Assembly: GCF_900108585.1 (NCBI RefSeq)
Contig: NZ_UESZ01000001.1
Span: forward strand, 3,658,001-3,722,000
DNA from: Branchiibius hedensis
Lineage (GTDB): Bacteria; Actinomycetota; Actinomycetes; Actinomycetales; Dermatophilaceae
Length of the DNA: 64,000 nucleotides
Reading direction: 5' to 3'
How positions within the stretch are numbered: the stretch's first letter is position 1; the number at the start of each line of letters is the position of its first letter. Under the pieces are notes generated by a model. The model did not search any database. It saw only the letters and a program-made list of their open reading frames with translations, and was not told the DNA's origin. Shown in pieces: positions 52,690-60,638 of this stretch. The translations under genes and the position numbers were made by a program.

Positions 52690-54188
52690 TCAGCTGCTCC
52701 GGCTCGCCAGTTGCTCAGCCAGCGCCGTTCGGTCCGGCGCCCCTTTGGCCGTGTGCGGGATGCTGGTCACCAGGAAGATGTGCGCTGGCACGGCGAACGC
52801 GGCCAGGTGCGCGGCGCAGAAGCTTCGGATTTCGTCCACGTCGATCTCGGCGCCGTCGGCCGGCACGATGGCGGCCGCCACGGTCTCGCCGTAGAGCGGG
52901 TCAGGTTGCCCGAAGACCACTGCCTCTTCGATGGCGGAGTGCGACAGCAGCACCTGCTGCACCGCCGCGGGGGCGATCTTCTCACCGCCGCGGTTGATCA
53001 GGTCTTTGATCCGGCCGGTGATGAAGAGGTTGCCGTCCTTGTCCAGTCGGCCGACGTCACCGGTGTGGAACCAGCCGTCCTCGAAGCTCGATGACCCGAC
53101 CCCACCGAGGTAGCCGGGGGTCAGGGTCGCGCCCTTGAGTACTACCTCACCGTCGGTCTCCGGCGGCAGGTCGGATCCGTCGTCGGCGATCACGCGGACG
53201 GTCACGCCGACGGGCTTGCCCACCGACTGCGGGACCCGCGGTCCACGATCCGGCAGCGTCGTCGAGGCGGTCTGGTGCGCCGTCTCGGTCATGCCGTACG
53301 CGGAGACGACGGGCGCGCCGAAGGTGGTCTCCAGTTCGGTCGCCACAGGGGCAGCCAGCGGCGCGCTGCAGCTGCGGATGAAACGCAGGGGCACCACCGA
53401 AGCGCCCGGGAACTCCTCCTGCGCTCTCATCAACAGGATCTGGTGCATGGTCGGGACGGCCGTGAACCACGTCGCGCCGGCCTGCTGCATCTGCGGCCAG
53501 AACGTGCTCGCGGAGAAGCGGTACTTCGCGGGCAGCTGGACCAGGCCACCAGTGGCCAAGGTGGCCAACAAGGTGGTGAACAGCCCGTGGCCGTGGAAGA
53601 GCGGCATGACCGCGAGGGTCCGGTCGGTGGGGCCCAGCTCGAGGGTGGTCGCGATGCCGTCGATCGAGGCCTGCACGTTGGCTGCCGTCAGCGGCACGGC
53701 CTTGGCGCGCCCGGTGGTCCCGGACGTGAACATGATCAGTTGCGTGTCGTCGGGCAACGGCACGGACTCGTGCGCTGCGGCCGCGTCCACCGTGCCGGCG
53801 ATCGTGGGTTCACCGGATCCCGTCGCATCGATCACCAGCGGGGGAGGGTGTCGACCTCGGGGCCGTCGGACGTCGTGAGCCAGGCGACCGCTCCCGCGTC
53901 GTGCAGCCGGGCACGGATGTCATCGACCGCCAGACCGGGGTCGATGACGGCCACCACCGCGCCCGCGTTGGCGGCGCCCAGCAGACCCAGTACGAATTCG
54001 AGACGGTTGGCGATCCCCAGTCCGATGACGCTGCCCTCGGGCACGCCGCTGGTGATCAGCGCCGCACTGGTCGTGGCGATCTGACTCCTCAACTCGTCGT
54101 ACGACAGGGTCCGCGAGTCTGGTCCGGGCAGACCCAGCGCCGGTCCGACCGAGTCGGGTCGGGGCAATACTCGGATCCCTTGAGGCAT
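52690..54188 (-). pseudogene. Acyl-CoA ligase of the oxalate locus, split by a 1-bp frameshift
   Basis: From the ATG at 54188 the frame encodes the start of an AMP-forming acyl-CoA synthetase (SYDELRSQIATTSAALITSGVPEGSVIGLGIANRLEFVLGLLGAANAGAV) and stops at 53832. The next frame continues it from about 53845: LPDDTQLIMFTSGTTGRAKAVPLT (P-loop), SAYGMTETAHQ, DGWFHTGDVGRLDKDGNLFITGRIKDLI and a C-terminal GAPDRTALAEQL (catalytic Lys in AKGAPDR). Adding one C to the CCCCC run near 53850 rejoins them (about 499 residues). Downstream GTG overlaps the TGA, so two chains could be made. Relatives include oxalyl-CoA synthetases, fitting the locus. Confidence 0.82.
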
Positions 54189-54277
54189 CACGCCACTCCT
54201 TGCCTACTCCCGAACGGGTCGTTCGGCTTCACCATAACTGCCGCCAATTGATTGAGATTTGCGTGTGGCTGCCACGA

Positions 54278-54334: not shown

Positions 54335-55141
54335 TCAGGCGAAGCTGCCGCCGGGGCTGGGGTCGGCGTTCGTCCGCTGCGAGGCAGCCATGCCGGCCAG
54401 TCCGATCAGGACCACGATCGGCAGGAGGAGTTCCCAGCCGGACTTCGATCCGGACCCGCCGAGCCAATGCACCAGAAGGGATCCGACGAACCCGCCCGAT
54501 GCGAAACCGAAGAGGACGAAGAAGAAGATCCCCGACCACATGATGTTCGGCTCACCGTGGATGCCGTCCCGCTTGAACCTGGCCTGGATCAGGAAGTTGA
54601 AGGCCATCTGCACAACGAAGGTCACCGCGACGTTGCCGTAGAGCATCCCGTGCACCTTGTGGAATGCGTTGCCTTGGGCGCCGGCCACGAAGGAGATGCC
54701 GAGCGCGATGTAGTGCCCGTGCCAGGACGTCTGCTGACCGAACAGCCCGACGGTGTCGTGGTTGTTGGATGCATCCGAGACGATCACCACCAGGGCGAGG
54801 ATCAGCAGGATCACCGCCTCGGACAGCAGGACGGCGACCGAGAAGCTCCGGCCCCGGTCCTTGAACTTGGTCATCAGGATGCCGCAGATCAGCGATCCCA
54901 GTCCGAACGACAGGACCGAGCACCACGCGAACCAGAACTTCGGCCAGTTCCCGTCGGCCAGGAAGATGCCGCTGGAGGCCACGTTGCCCGACTGGACCGT
55001 GGCGAACGTGGAGGCGTTGAAAAGCGTCCAGGCGTTGCAGCTGCCGGCCACGAAGGCCATGGCTGCGCCCACCCAGGGCCATTCGGTGAACGGATGGGGA
55101 CCGGCCTCTGAGCGGTCCTCGACCTCTTCGACTGTCGACAT
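54335..55141 (-). CDS. DUF1275 (YoaK) family membrane protein
   Basis: 268 residues with six to seven membrane segments (for example VGAAMAFVAGSCNAWTLFNAS, VLSFGLGSLICGILM, VAVLLSEAVILLILALVVIV, GISFVAGAQGNAFHKVHG, IFFFVLFGFASGGFVGSLL, LLLPIVVLIGLAGMAA). The GNxA..G and TFATVQSGNV segments are hallmarks of DUF1275. Function unknown. It begins 14 bp after the CoA transferase stop, inside the oxalate operon that has no OxlT-type carrier, so an oxalate/formate transport role is a good guess but only inference. Confidence 0.88.
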   Translation of the reverse strand: MSTVEEVEDRSEAGPHPFTEWPWVGAAMAFVAGSCNAWTLFNASTFATVQSGNVASSGIFLADGNWPKFWFAWCSVLSFGLGSLICGILMTKFKDRGRSFSVAVLLSEAVILLILALVVIVSDASNNHDTVGLFGQQTSWHGHYIALGISFVAGAQGNAFHKVHGMLYGNVAVTFVVQMAFNFLIQARFKRDGIHGEPNIMWSGIFFFVLFGFASGGFVGSLLVHWLGGSGSKSGWELLLPIVVLIGLAGMAASQRTNADPSPGGSFA

Positions 55142-55155
55142 GATGGATCCCTTCG

Positions 55156-56352
55156 TTACGAATCGAACTCGGCTCGGATACTGTCGCCGTTCGCGTTGTA
55201 GACCGGCGCATCATGTTGGGCACCATAGGAATTCCAGGTGCTGTACTTCATCGGACTTCCCGGGACCTCCTGGCCGTCCACGACCTTGACCATTCCGCGC
55301 TCGATGATCTGCGGAAGCCGCCGCGTGTCGTCGACGTTCAGCACGATGCCGACGGGAACCCCGGCCGCCTCCAACTTCGCGCGCCACGTCTCCGCGACAT
55401 CGGTCGTGGTCACCGACTCGATCGCGGCCTTCACCTGGGCCCAGTTGGTCGCGCGGTCGGAGTTCTCGACGAAGCCCTCCTGGGTCGGCCACTCGGGGTG
55501 GCCCAGCGCCTCGGAGAAGAGCTGCCAGAGGTGGTTGTTGCCGACGCAGACAGCCAGCGGCTGGTCGGAGCACTCGAACGTGTCGAAGGGATACATGAAC
55601 GGGTGGCGGTTGCCGATCCGTTCCGGGCGCTCGTGCACGCCGAGCGCGTCCATCAGCCCATGCTCGAGCAATGCGAAGGTGGAGTCGAGCATGGCGATGT
55701 CGACGGTGCTGCCCTTGCCGGTGCGCTCGCGGGCGACCAGAGCGGTGACGATGCCGCAGTAACCGAAGATTCCTGCAGCGATGTCGGACAGCGACGTCCC
55801 CACGCGGGTCGCAGGGCCGTCCGGGAAGCCAGTCGAGGCCATCACTCCCGACAGCGCCTGGATGATGGTGTCGTACGCCGCCTGCTGGTGCATCGGGCCG
55901 TACTGACCGAAGCCCGAGATCGAGGCCACGATCAACCGGGGGTGCTCCTTGACCAGGTCAACGGGGTCGATGCCCAGTTTGGCCATCACCCCCGGGCGGA
56001 AGTTCTCGACGACCACGTCGGCCTGGCTGATGAGCTTCTTCAGAAAGGCGAAGTCGTCGGCGTCGGTGAAGTCCAGGGCGATGGACTCCTTGCCCACGTT
56101 GGCGAGCCGGAAGTACTCGCTCGAACCGTCCGGCAGGTAGGGACCCATCGCACGGGTGTCGTCGCCTTTGGGCGGTCGTTCGACGTGGATCACCCGGGCG
56201 CCACCGTCGGCCAGCATCCGGGCGCAGGTGGGTCCGGATAGCACCCGGGTCAGGTCGACCACGAGGATTCCGTCCAGCGGATAGGGCTTGCTGCGGTCGA
56301 GGTGGGCGTTCTTGAGTTCGAGATTCTCGTACTCGGGTTCGGCTGTTGACAT
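55156..56352 (-). CDS. frc: Formyl-CoA:oxalate CoA-transferase (class III)
   Basis: 398 residues from the ATG at 56352, with GGGAG 7 nt upstream; an earlier in-frame codon at 56385 has no support. Class III CoA-transferase text: LDGILVVDLTRVLSGPTCARMLADGGARVIHVERPPKGDDTR near 20-65, the catalytic Asp in QAAYDTIIQALSGVMASTG near 157-175 and GSTVDIAMLDSTFALLEH near 215. It moves CoA from formyl-CoA to oxalate, making oxalyl-CoA for the decarboxylase whose gene lies upstream. Confidence 0.92.
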   Translation of the reverse strand: MSTAEPEYENLELKNAHLDRSKPYPLDGILVVDLTRVLSGPTCARMLADGGARVIHVERPPKGDDTRAMGPYLPDGSSEYFRLANVGKESIALDFTDADDFAFLKKLISQADVVVENFRPGVMAKLGIDPVDLVKEHPRLIVASISGFGQYGPMHQQAAYDTIIQALSGVMASTGFPDGPATRVGTSLSDIAAGIFGYCGIVTALVARERTGKGSTVDIAMLDSTFALLEHGLMDALGVHERPERIGNRHPFMYPFDTFECSDQPLAVCVGNNHLWQLFSEALGHPEWPTQEGFVENSDRATNWAQVKAAIESVTTTDVAETWRAKLEAAGVPVGIVLNVDDTRRLPQIIERGMVKVVDGQEVPGSPMKYSTWNSYGAQHDAPVYNANGDSIRAEFDS

Positions 56353-56389
56353 GCGTAGCTCCCTTAGCTGTGCCGATATGGACAATTAC

Positions 56390-58111
56390 TCACTGGTGGG
56401 GCGGTGCCGCGATGGTGACCGAGGGGTTGAGGCTGGTCAGGTGACCGGACTCGGTGCCCACCGTCGGGTCGATGACCGCATTGATGACGGCCGGTGTGCC
56501 GGCCGCGAGCGCTGCGCGCACGGCGTCATCCAATTCCTGCGGCGTGGTCGCGTAATAGCCGGTCCCGTCGAACGCTTCGATCAGCTTCTCGTAGTGAGCA
56601 CTGGCATCGAGGACCGTCGGGCCCGGGTCGCTGGAGGCGTTGTTGACGTAGTCGCCTTTGTAGATGCCGCCGTTGTTGAAGATGATGGTGATGATCGGCA
56701 GCTTGTAGCGGCAGATCGTCTCCAACTCCATGCCGGAGAAGCCAAACGCCGAGTCGCCTTCGACGGCGATGACCGGTTGACCGGTCTCGACAGCCGCCGC
56801 GATGGCGTATCCCATGCCCACGCCCATGACCCCCCACGTGCCGGTGTCGAGCCGGTGCCGCGGCTTGTGCATGTCGACGATGTCGCGGGTCATGTCCAGC
56901 GTGTTGGCGCCCTCGTTGACCAGGTAGGTCTCCGGGAAGTCCTGGAAAACCTGTTTGAGCACCTTGAGCGCGCCGTAGAACCCCATCGGAGAGTGCGGTG
57001 CGTCGAGCCGGGTGGCCATCTTGGCCACGTTCGTGGCGGTCTTCTCCGCCAGCTGGTCCCGCCACTGTTGCGGCACGGTCCACGGTTCTTTGGCCAACCG
57101 GTCGTTCAGCAGCCCGACCACCGAAGCGATGTCACCCACGAGCGGCGCGGCGATGGGCTGGTTGGAGTCGATCTCCGTCGCGGAGATGTCCACCTGGACG
57201 AAGGTGGCGTCTGCGTTCCACTTGGGCGAATTGCCATGGGACAACAACCAATTCAGTCGCGCACCGAGCAGCACGACGACGTCGGCGTTGGTCATCGCCA
57301 GCGATCGGGCTGCTGCAGCGGATTGCGGATGTCCGTCCGGGATGAGGCCCTTGGCCATCGACATGGGCAGGAAGGGGATACCGGTGGACTCCACGAAGGT
57401 GGTGATGGCCTCATCGGCCTGCGCGTAGGCCGCGCCCTTGCCGATCACCAGCAACGGTTTCTCGGCGCTGCGCAGCACCTCGAGGGCCCGGTCCACGGCG
57501 GAGGGGGCCGGCAACTGGGCCGGCGCCGGGTCGACGAGAGTGATGATCGAGCGGGCGCCCTGGTCGGCGTCGAGTGCCGCGGACAGGACATCGGCGGGAA
57601 CGTCGAGGTAGACGCCACCCGGTCGACCGGACACCGCAGTTCTGATGGCCCGGGCCACACCGAGCCCGACGTCTTCCGGGCGGTCGATCCGATAGGCCGC
57701 CTTGACCAGCGGTTTGGCGGTGGCCAGTTGGTCCAGTTCCTCGTAGTCGCCGCGCTGCAGGTCGATGATGTGCCGATCGGAGGAACCGGAGATCTGGATC
57801 ATGGGAAAGCAGTTGACGGTGGCCGCAGCCAGGGACACCAGGCCGTTCAAGAAGCCCGGCGCCGACACCGTGAGGCAGACTCCCGGCTTCCCAGTCAGGA
57901 ATCCCGCAATGGCGGCGGCGTTTCCGGCCGACGCCTCATGCCGGAAACCGATGTAGCGCATCCCGCGGGATTGCGCCAACCGGGCGAAATCAGTTACCGG
58001 GATACCGACCAGCCCATAGATTGTTTCTATTCCATTGTTTTGCAATGCGTCGACCAGCAAGTTGGCGCCGTTTGTCGTCGGGGCGGCTGTCGAAGCGTCG
58101 GTGGCTGTCAT
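56390..58111 (-). CDS. oxc: Oxalyl-CoA decarboxylase
   Basis: 573 residues, thiamine diphosphate enzyme converting oxalyl-CoA to formyl-CoA and CO2. Landmarks: NNGIETIYGLVGIPVTDFARLAQ near 25-47, the catalytic Glu in GFRHEASAGNAAAIAGFLTGKPGVCLTVSAPGF near 55-86, and the ThDP-Mg motif GDSAFGFSGMELETICRYKLPIITIIFNNGGIY near 455-490. Gly-Ile-Pro after GLVG and the ADP-activation region match Oxalobacter OXC. First gene of the operon; AGAGGA precedes the ATG. Confidence 0.95.
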   Translation of the reverse strand: MTATDASTAAPTTNGANLLVDALQNNGIETIYGLVGIPVTDFARLAQSRGMRYIGFRHEASAGNAAAIAGFLTGKPGVCLTVSAPGFLNGLVSLAAATVNCFPMIQISGSSDRHIIDLQRGDYEELDQLATAKPLVKAAYRIDRPEDVGLGVARAIRTAVSGRPGGVYLDVPADVLSAALDADQGARSIITLVDPAPAQLPAPSAVDRALEVLRSAEKPLLVIGKGAAYAQADEAITTFVESTGIPFLPMSMAKGLIPDGHPQSAAAARSLAMTNADVVVLLGARLNWLLSHGNSPKWNADATFVQVDISATEIDSNQPIAAPLVGDIASVVGLLNDRLAKEPWTVPQQWRDQLAEKTATNVAKMATRLDAPHSPMGFYGALKVLKQVFQDFPETYLVNEGANTLDMTRDIVDMHKPRHRLDTGTWGVMGVGMGYAIAAAVETGQPVIAVEGDSAFGFSGMELETICRYKLPIITIIFNNGGIYKGDYVNNASSDPGPTVLDASAHYEKLIEAFDGTGYYATTPQELDDAVRAALAAGTPAVINAVIDPTVGTESGHLTSLNPSVTIAAPPHQ

Positions 58112-58471
58112 GCTGTCCTCTGATCGGGGGAAGTGCGACGTGATCCCGGCTGCCCGCTATCGCATCCGGAGATAGAGAGGCTATGAGATCGCGGCCTTGG
58201 GGGGCCGCTGCCGACATTCTTACACCTGATTGCGGCAATGGACGTGGCGCCGCAGCGGGGCCAAATTCTTGACGAGTCCTCTTGTGCCATGGTCCAAAAA
58301 CCCCTATTTGTCCAGGCAATCCCTGATCGGATACATGGTCGCGTTTCCTCGCGTGCTGGGCAATCCCAAGAACGAAGAAGCGTCGTCGCAAATGCGCAGT
58401 ACTCCTGCTTCGGGACTCTACGATCGAAGAGGGGTCGGGCATCGTCGGTCCCACTTCACGAAGGGGCGTCA
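58112..58471. other. Divergent intergenic region between oxc and the AraC regulator gene
   Basis: 360 bp with no convincing gene. It contains a hairpin GCGGCC-TTGGGG-GGCCGC (58191-58208) and a TTGACG (58268-58273) that could be a -35 box for the regulator. No Crp-type or IclR-type palindrome is seen. It must hold the oxc promoter and the AraC binding sites, which I cannot place. Confidence 0.4.
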
Positions 58472-59566
58472 ATGGACTCCGGCAGGCTCGTTGACTTGAT
58501 CCAGGCGCGCGGTGTGTCGGTGGCCTCGGGTGTGCAGGACGCGGAGGAACTCGTCGACATCCTCACGCCGCTGACCAGGCCCCATCGAGTCGTGCCGGTG
58601 CAGGCGACCGCCGTCCTCGATGCCCGGGTCGAGTCGGTCGTCGCCGCGAACATCAGTCTTTCGCACGTGAGCTACGGCGCCGACGTCATTGTGACGCCGG
58701 CCGACGTCGACGTTGAGACCTTTCTGTTCCCCGTCTCGTTGTCGGGCTCCGCACGGCTGACCTACGGCGACGACACCTTGATCGCGAAAAGCCAGACCGC
58801 CACTGTGATCGCGCCGTACCGGGTGTTCCGCTCTGAGATCCGGGCCGATCACGAGCAGATCATCGTGACCATCCCGCGGTCCCGGTTGGAGATCCTGGCC
58901 GCCCGCCTCCTGGGGCGTGGACGTGAAGAAGTAGAACCGGCGCTGGCCAACGTTCGCGTGCCGGCCTCCGTGATCGCCCAGGTGGAAACCGTCGTTCTCA
59001 TGGCGACCGAGGATCTCAACGCACAGTCGCGTGACGTGCTCCTGAGACTGGAAGATCTGCTGATCGAGTCGATCCTGCTGGCCCTGCCGGATTTCCGCCG
59101 ACAACTACCTTCGGCGGCCTTCGTCCCTTCGCGGAAAGTGGGCGCGGCGATGGCCTACATGGACGACCACCTGGCCGAGCCACTGACCATCTCCGAGGTA
59201 GCAACGCAGGTGGGCGTGACCGCGCGCGGTCTACAACTGGCGTTCCAACGTGAGCTGAACCAGACGCCCATGCGATGGCTGCGCGATCGGCGCCTGGATG
59301 CGGCGCACGGCCTGCTGAGCCGGGCGGTCCCCGGCCAAGAAGTCACGGTTACCAGTGTGGCCCGCGCCACCGGATTGCATCATCTGGGACATTTCGCCCG
59401 CGCATTCCGCGACCGGTTCGGTGAACAACCGTCATCCATCCTGACCGCCCAGACGGGCCGGCTCGCTGCGGCGATCGAGGAAGGGCCTGGCGGGCGCCCC
59501 GTGACCGTGCTTCCGAGGTATCGAGAGGGCCTGGTACCGGAACAGATCGCCGCCCCAGGTAGTTGA
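58472..59566 (+). CDS. AraC-family transcriptional regulator
   Basis: 364 residues. I choose the ATG at 58472, with AAGGGG 5 nt upstream; the frame extends further upstream without coding character. N-terminal AraC-binding-like domain (RLTYGDDTLIAKSQTATVIAPYRVFRSEIRADHEQIIVTIPRSRLE near 100-145), then the double HTH: AYMDDHLAEPLTISEVATQVGVTARGLQLAFQRELNQTPMRWLRDRRLDAA near 228-278 and VTSVARATGLHHLGHFARAFRDRFGEQPSSIL near 295-326. Divergent from oxc and so the likely activator of oxalate use. Confidence 0.92.
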   Translation: MDSGRLVDLIQARGVSVASGVQDAEELVDILTPLTRPHRVVPVQATAVLDARVESVVAANISLSHVSYGADVIVTPADVDVETFLFPVSLSGSARLTYGDDTLIAKSQTATVIAPYRVFRSEIRADHEQIIVTIPRSRLEILAARLLGRGREEVEPALANVRVPASVIAQVETVVLMATEDLNAQSRDVLLRLEDLLIESILLALPDFRRQLPSAAFVPSRKVGAAMAYMDDHLAEPLTISEVATQVGVTARGLQLAFQRELNQTPMRWLRDRRLDAAHGLLSRAVPGQEVTVTSVARATGLHHLGHFARAFRDRFGEQPSSILTAQTGRLAAAIEEGPGGRPVTVLPRYREGLVPEQIAAPGS

Positions 59567-59573
59567 AACTTCT

Positions 59574-60638
59574 ATGAAGGCTTTTGGATTCCTCAGTTTC
59601 GGCCACTACGGCCGGTTTCCCGGCTCACAGACCCGGGACGCGGCGGCCGCGCTCAAGCAGGCCGTCGAGCTCGGTGTCGGTGCCGACTCGATCGGCGTGA
59701 ACGGCGCCTATTTCCGCGTGCACCACTTCGAGCGTCAGGCTGCGGCGCCGATCCCGGTGCTGTCGGCGATCGCCGCGCGTACCTCCCGCATCGAGGTGGG
59801 CACCGGCGTGATCGACATGCGCTATGAGAACCCGCTCTACCTGGCTGAGGAGCTCGGTGCCCTGGACCTGCTCAGCGACCAGCGGATCGCCATCGGCATC
59901 TCCCGGGGTTCACCGGAGACCGCGGTGCGCGGCTACGAGGCGTTCGGCTACACCGGCGCCCAGGACCCGCGTGGCGGGGACATCGCGCGGGAGAAGTTCG
60001 CGACCTTCCTGGCCGCCATCCTAGGTGCCGGCATGGTGGACGCCGATCCGCAGCGGGCGCCGCAGGGCACCCGGCTGCCGGTCCAACCGCACGCACCGGG
60101 TCTGATCGACCGCATCTGGTGGGGTTCGGGCACTCGCGAAACCGCCGAGTGGGTGGGCAAGCTCGGGCTGAACCTGATGTCGTCCACGCTGCTGACCGAG
60201 GCCAACGGTGAGTCGTTCGCGGCGCTGCAGAAGGAGCAGATAGACCGTTTCCGGGCGGCGTACGCCGAGGCCGGGCACACCGGGGCACCGCGAGTTTCGG
60301 TGTCGCGCAGCGTGTTCCCGATCGTCAACGCACAGGACGCGGCGTACTTCGGTCAATCCAACGACGACGACCAGATCGGTGTCATCGACGGGTTCCGCTC
60401 CACGTTCGGCAAGACCTACGCGGCCGAGCCCGACGTGCTGATCGAGCAGCTGAAGCAGGATGAGGCCGTGATGGCCGCGGACACTCTGATGCTGACCATC
60501 CCCAACCAGTTGGGCGTGGACTACAACCTGCACGTGCTGGACAGCTTCGCCAAACACGTTGCGCCGCAATTGGGTTGGGAGTCCAATGCTGAGGGTCCGG
60601 TCACGGGTGAGCCGATCGTTGCTGCCACTGCCAGGTGA
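59574..60638 (+). CDS. LLM-class flavin-dependent oxidoreductase
   Basis: 354 residues, bacterial luciferase-like barrel. N-terminal MKAFGFLSFGHYGRFPGSQTRDAAAALKQAVELG, RIEVGTGVIDMRYENPLYLAEELGALDLLSDQRIAIGISRGSPETAVRGYEAFGY near 75-130, and LPVQPHAPGLIDRIWWGSGTRETAEWVGKLGLNLMSSTLL near 163-203. FMN or F420 is the likely cofactor. It starts 7 bp after the regulator's stop with no good Shine-Dalgarno, so translation may be coupled. Substrate unknown; it may belong to the AraC-controlled set. Confidence 0.88.
   Translation: MKAFGFLSFGHYGRFPGSQTRDAAAALKQAVELGVGADSIGVNGAYFRVHHFERQAAAPIPVLSAIAARTSRIEVGTGVIDMRYENPLYLAEELGALDLLSDQRIAIGISRGSPETAVRGYEAFGYTGAQDPRGGDIAREKFATFLAAILGAGMVDADPQRAPQGTRLPVQPHAPGLIDRIWWGSGTRETAEWVGKLGLNLMSSTLLTEANGESFAALQKEQIDRFRAAYAEAGHTGAPRVSVSRSVFPIVNAQDAAYFGQSNDDDQIGVIDGFRSTFGKTYAAEPDVLIEQLKQDEAVMAADTLMLTIPNQLGVDYNLHVLDSFAKHVAPQLGWESNAEGPVTGEPIVAATAR

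Follow-up and report, generated by a model that had tools for sequence, protein, structure and literature searches.

In other oxc operons, the uptake of oxalate is ascribed to proteins of the OxlT or YfdV type. In Klebsiella, YfdV is encoded between oxc and yfdE, and the usual arrangement in Burkholderiaceae is antiporter-oxc-frc, as in the oxalate/formate antiporter-oxc-frc cluster given for B. phytofirmans in the relevant passage of PMC3886118. In the sections of PMC3720670 that concern these enzymes, YfdE and UctC convert acetyl-CoA and oxalate to oxalyl-CoA and acetate, and YfdE also works, more slowly, on formyl-CoA together with acetate or oxalate. The same sections present the Acetobacter aceti region uctB-oxc-uctC-duf1275; hence, the link between DUF1275 and oxc is partly known already. 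The DUF1275/YoaK family is registered as TC 9.B.143, where no transport function is given and whose relatives occur in many other gene contexts; TCDB links it to half-size MFS carriers, according to a passage of PMC7778945. The passages of PMC7778945 and PMC12316277 that treat DUF1275 members assign no function to them, and a statement that DUF1275 carries oxalate was not found in the open-licence papers searched.

The window studied here is the whole stretch of 64,000 nucleotides from Branchiibius hedensis. Its minus strand holds, in order, oxc, a class III CoA-transferase gene and, as third gene, a DUF1275 gene, followed by a strong hairpin. The features are presented in Table 1.

Table 1. 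Features of the oxc operon and its surroundings in the window.
Feature	Positions	Strand	Evidence
Ligase gene, C-terminal part (P0006), oxalate-CoA-ligase-like	52690..53835	minus	best PDB matches
AMP-binding ligase gene, N-terminal part, frame-broken	53832..54191	minus	PF00501 58 bits; in-frame stop
Perfect 19-bp hairpin behind DUF1275, 4-base loop	54277..54318	minus	terminator-like, without T tract
DUF1275 membrane protein (P0001), candidate carrier	54335..55141	minus	PF06912 match, long-helix model
YfdE-like class III CoA-transferase (P0002), acetyl-CoA:oxalate type	55156..56352	minus	4hl6, GNxH, SLSD
oxc, oxalyl-CoA decarboxylase (P0003)	56390..58111	minus	TIGR03254 952 bits, cut-off 739.4 (passed)
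AraC-type regulator, divergent from oxc	58238..59566	plus	HTH_18 and AraC_binding_2

The initial annotation had described the DUF1275 gene as part of an oxc-frc operon, lying ahead of its terminator. The operon with oxc is there, yet its transferase P0002 is not a true Frc, as it scores 207.8 against TIGR03253 with a cut-off of 504.2 and has E. coli YfdE (4hl6, 343 bits) as its best PDB match; oxc-yfdE-like operon is thus the proper description. The Frc/YfdW entries of the PDB reach 144-157 bits, one other entry named as a formyl-CoA transferase reaches 221, and no gene in the whole genome exceeds the TIGR03253 cut-off. P0002 is 48% identical to A. pomorum YfdE and carries both SLSD and the GNxH motif (as GNNH, at 282), the latter being found in 16 of 17 YfdE-class ORFs and in none of 92 Frc-class ORFs among the loci collected here. 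According to PMC3720670, in its section on the enzyme, GNxH replaces the glycine-rich loop in the YfdE acetyl-CoA:oxalate CoA-transferase. Given the score of 395.2 against NF008511 is below the curated cut-off of 522, P0002 is named only YfdE-like. Its start was placed at the ATG at 56352, which has AAGGGAG upstream, and the ORF extends back to a TTG at 56385.

What the initial annotation called a terminator is a strong, terminator-like hairpin (an 85-nt stretch has -48.3 kcal/mol and z -6.1, with 0 of 200 shuffles as stable). It has no T tract and was not picked up by a simple scan for terminators. Downstream of DUF1275, the oxalate-CoA-ligase-like gene (52690-54191) lies in two overlapping frames and is not intact; the break may stem from recent gene loss or from an error in sequencing. 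Its C-terminal part matches the oxalate-CoA ligases 5ie0, 6qjz and 8aff with 360, 351 and 284 bits, the next other enzyme being at 166. On the opposite side, the AraC-type regulator is, by its position, a possible regulator of the operon, and its true start may lie further inside the ORF. Behind it, on the plus strand, is a luciferase-like monooxygenase gene (59574-60638).

The DUF1275 gene is real and is located on the minus strand, a strand not given in the initial annotation. It starts with ATG, 14 bases after the transferase gene, is preceded by a Shine-Dalgarno-like GAAGGGA and encodes 268 amino acids. P0001 scores 79.8 bits against PF06912 (DUF1275), passing the gathering score of 25.4, and is hence a Pfam member of the family of TC 9.B.143; this is its sole Pfam family and the single DUF1275 copy in the 4.0-Mb genome. 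The protein is strongly divergent, with at most 22% identity. At E <= 1e-15, it has no relative besides itself in the 396 genomes of the host phylum, and no similarity to plasmid-borne proteins was obtained at E <= 1e-5. The family positions G33, G52, N53, Q156, T174 and G216 are retained. No NCBIfam model matched P0001, the OxlT model TIGR04259 included. The sole PDB profile match, a complex I subunit (E 0.0033), was treated as chance, and a named identity, OxlT-like or other, was rejected as unsupported by Pfam, NCBIfam and the PDB profile search.

The AlphaFold model of P0001, built from an 8-row alignment, has a mean pLDDT of 73 and a pTM of 0.72, and presents seven helices of at least 21 residues plus one of 14, which makes the seven membrane segments of the initial annotation plausible. 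The model of the P. solisilvae protein of L077 (pLDDT 80, pTM 0.76, also an 8-row alignment) likewise has about seven long helices. Foldseek yielded no match at E <= 0.001 for either model, the best E for P0001 being 0.065. VIA gave Z values up to 8.4 over 85 residues for P0001, which is within noise for helical bundles; ferroportin, NorA, VMAT and MCT are interspersed there with photosystem and GltPh. MFS carriers are frequent, within that noise.

In comparison with the described systems, OxlT and P0001 are both membrane proteins encoded with oxc, and the same job is proposed for them; however, the OxlT model spans 405 positions, the full MFS size. The window's DUF1275 gene also resembles yfdV of the E. 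coli-type yfd operon as a membrane gene between or beside oxc and yfdE, although the AEC family of YfdV is unrelated to DUF1275. The closest arrangements are A. aceti uctB-oxc-uctC-duf1275 and, on an A. pomorum plasmid (L045), frc-oxc-yfdE-yoaK, where yfdE and yoaK overlap by 4 bases: as in the window, DUF1275 directly follows a transferase of the YfdE/UctC type. The window differs from the A. pomorum plasmid in having no frc, in having the ligase gene downstream and in its DUF1275 protein, which shows no BLAST similarity to the plasmid one.

The absence of a carrier nearby, on which the initial annotation had relied, holds in the operon. Genome-wide, the search covered two carrier types, with no OxlT (TIGR04259) at E <= 1e-60 and no AEC carrier (PF03547) in the host genome; other MFS or ABC carriers may be encoded. 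Oxc over the cut-off is found in one of the 149 genomes of the host family, the host itself, and Oxc at E <= 1e-180 in 13 of the 396 genomes of the host phylum. The oxalate module of the host looks acquired.

The association proposed as a check, DUF1275 next to oxc in other genomes, was found, contrary to the refuting outcome named in the initial annotation; with the window itself, there are twelve distinct loci in four phyla (the window, L045, L077, L091, L175, L176, L177, L083, L144, L100, L106 and L121). Within the best 80 of 572 oxc loci by similarity to the window's Oxc, a set which is not random and in which 61 loci have full 6-kb flanks, six have DUF1275 within 6 kb of oxc, where about 0.35 are expected (Poisson P about 2e-6). 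The expectation is, if anything, too high, since the DUF1275 density behind it (25 in 79.1 Mb) comes from genomes chosen among these same loci. All six proteins are over the Pfam cut-off. The gene order is frc-oxc-yfdE-DUF1275 in L077 and L091, ligase-DUF1275-frc-oxc in L100, frc-oxc-ligase-DUF1275 in L106 and DUF1275-oxc-frc in L083; in L121, DUF1275, a phosphotransacetylase-family gene and yfdE are divergent from frc-oxc. The phosphotransacetylase-family gene (PF01515; L121 5183-6118) lies between yfdE and DUF1275 and could recycle the acetate side of the YfdE reaction.

Oxc is present in 70 of 180 Burkholderiaceae genomes. In four of the 70 (G541, G603, G696 and G566), a DUF1275 gene follows oxc at a distance of about 1.3 kb, on its strand and with yfdE between; the contigs of G603 and G696 break off less than 7 kb away on one side. 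Among the 13 oxc genomes of the host phylum sample, DUF1275 stands in the oxc gene row in two, the host and G222, which belong to the same class. The row of G222 (L144 3132-11767) reads, on one strand, oxc, frc, a DUF4331 gene, an AMP-ligase, an unknown ORF (P0009), DUF1275 and, 12 bases beyond, an NAD-dependent formate dehydrogenase (681 bits, cut-off 329). DUF1275 at 9-10 kb from oxc in G243, G522 and G530 was left uncounted, and in the other eight genomes it is farther off, on another contig, or absent. Oxc was found in just one of 199 Acidobacteriota genomes. Ten of 27 plasmid oxc records were examined, one of which has DUF1275. L117, with DUF1275 about 7.5 kb from oxc, was left out of the linked set. 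The continuation of L066, whose contig ends inside yfdE, in G550:C133 was dropped, given the DUF1275 there belongs to another clade.

A second oxalate-activating gene (yfdE or ligase) is present in six of six loci with DUF1275 against 36 of 74 without it (p 0.027; best 80 of 572), which is a hint only, because actinobacterial oxc loci often have a ligase and no DUF1275. Within the same best 80 of 572, a ligase-like ORF lies within 6 kb of oxc in 37. Many of the Streptomyces and Mycobacterium loci (within L055-L134) have an oxalate-CoA-ligase-like gene divergent from oxc. DUF1275 is absent within 6 kb in 74 of these best 80 of 572, and DUF1275, OxlT-like and AEC genes are all unseen within 6 kb in 68 (by a search with the single OxlT query L090, which misses distant OxlT); a visible carrier is therefore not obligatory at oxc.

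The presence of DUF1275 alternates with that of OxlT in Burkholderiaceae. A TIGR04259 search of 65 genomes covered 57 oxc places in this family, 15 of the 70 oxc-bearing genomes being left out (14 with a size of 1.7-2.2 Mb, plus G695, where oxc is partial). Of the 53 loci that lack DUF1275, 49 have OxlT within 15 kb of oxc; of the four that have DUF1275, none does (Fisher p 1.8e-4). With a limit of 3 kb, the values are 32 of 53 and none of four (p 0.03). Given the four DUF1275 loci belong to one clade and share a history, this alternation represents one or few events. At E <= 1e-60, OxlT is also missing from G543, G545, G546 and G566; G547 and G548 have oxc-yfdE, yet neither a nearby DUF1275 nor an OxlT at this threshold. 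At L090, yfdE and an OxlT-like gene are both present at the oxc locus, without DUF1275 there.

Among 45 DUF1275 sequences placed in a tree, the oxc-linked members occur at scattered positions: a proteobacterial clade, an acidobacterial pair, Binatota L100, Mycobacterium L083 and P0001, the latter on a very long branch. A single clade of linked DUF1275 is rejected with p-AU 0.025 for 11 linked loci, and with 0.0004 when G222 is counted too, its locus L144 having been relabelled as oxc-linked after the first tree, upon reading of the gene row. The link between DUF1275 and oxc arose more than once. Without P0001 and L083, one clade for the remaining linked set stays compatible (p 0.074); as this fails to reject it, the rest may be of one origin. 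The number of label changes on the tree is seven with 11 linked loci and eight with 12, of which the starred branches force just two.

DUF1275 is likely a member of the oxalate module, and its role there in a carrier-like slot is supported by the recurrence beside oxc and by the alternation with OxlT in one family. To this extent the transporter reading of the initial annotation stands; oxalate is a candidate substrate only, and the findings agree almost equally with an export of formate or acetate, or with general protection against acid. DUF1275 is hence a good candidate for the membrane passage of oxalate or of formate, its product. Tentatively, P0001 may well be the carrier of the oxalate operon, doing a job of the OxlT/YfdV type by taking oxalate in, probably in exchange for formate. 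DUF1275 would admit oxalate to the cell, probably against formate, and the half-MFS-sized protein would presumably act as a dimer. The YfdE-like transferase would then turn acetyl-CoA and oxalate into oxalyl-CoA and acetate, Oxc would convert oxalyl-CoA to formyl-CoA and CO2, and formyl-CoA would yield formate through the YfdE-type use of formyl-CoA. Given oxalate would enter and formate and CO2 would leave in net terms, the scheme suits an oxalate:formate exchanger.

Relatives of DUF1275 are found beside other genes as well. P. solisilvae has two paralogues of the oxalate-linked clade that are not at oxc, one of which (L196 3-5675) lies directly behind a three-gene row resembling an RND efflux operon, as named from the sequences. 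On three Acetobacter plasmids (L198, L199 and L200), more distant DUF1275/YoaK genes begin right where a Na+/H+ antiporter gene ends, at its stop codon. Another such gene, on a Kozakia plasmid (L197), has a chloride channel gene on one side and an RND operon on the other; four of 13 further plasmid YoaK records were examined. A passage of PMC12316277 gives YtcJ-like amidohydrolases as neighbours of other DUF1275 members.

A general role of the family under acid or ion stress may be considered, and it is possible, though somewhat doubtful, that DUF1275 exports the acidic products formate and acetate, or is a pH-homeostasis protein against the weak-acid load of oxalate use, with oxalate entering otherwise. 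The Acetobacter plasmid relatives behind Na+/H+ antiporter genes, the Kozakia relative flanked by a chloride channel gene and an RND operon, the P. solisilvae paralogue behind an RND operon, the adjoining formate dehydrogenase in G222, and the tie of E. coli oxalate-CoA enzymes to acid tolerance (in the corresponding section of PMC3720670) all point this way. Protection against acid or weak acids is a strong rival because most oxc loci have no DUF1275, many have no visible carrier, and relatives stand beside efflux pumps and Na+/H+ antiporters; alone, however, it does not account for the lack of OxlT at precisely those loci that have DUF1275.

Two further explanations concern a protein with no transport of its own. 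A membrane helper of the oxalate enzymes, such as a scaffold or sensor, or a protein handling CO2, would be consistent with the lack of a significant carrier-fold match for the P0001 and L077 models and with the silence on function in the passages of PMC7778945 and PMC12316277; we consider it improbable, as P0001 is small and multi-helix, has no soluble domains, and belongs to a family that TCDB places with MFS (PMC7778945, in the passage concerned). A passenger of an acquired, decaying module with no present function would agree with the rarity of Oxc in the host family, the broken ligase gene and the lack of a close P0001 relative elsewhere in the phylum, but the three operon genes are intact, closely spaced and provided with ribosome sites, and P0001 retains the family positions, which renders this explanation very unlikely.

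Extending the carrier reading to the family, we would propose, with rather low confidence, that DUF1275 includes small carriers of oxalate (or oxalate:formate) whose sequences are not related to that of OxlT. Such carriers would have entered oxc operons on more than one occasion, across four or more phyla, and would take the place of OxlT above all where oxalate is also activated by a transferase of the YfdE type or by an ATP-dependent oxalate-CoA ligase. If P0001 carries oxalate or formate, a large and widespread family without an assigned function in the passages above would gain a substrate, and oxc operons that lack OxlT would gain a candidate carrier. Two positions of P0001 are candidates for coupling and anion binding in such a carrier: N36, in the first motif, where 79% of the aligned relatives have D or E (a frequent, not a defining, residue), and the retained K162, where 57% of relatives have R or K.
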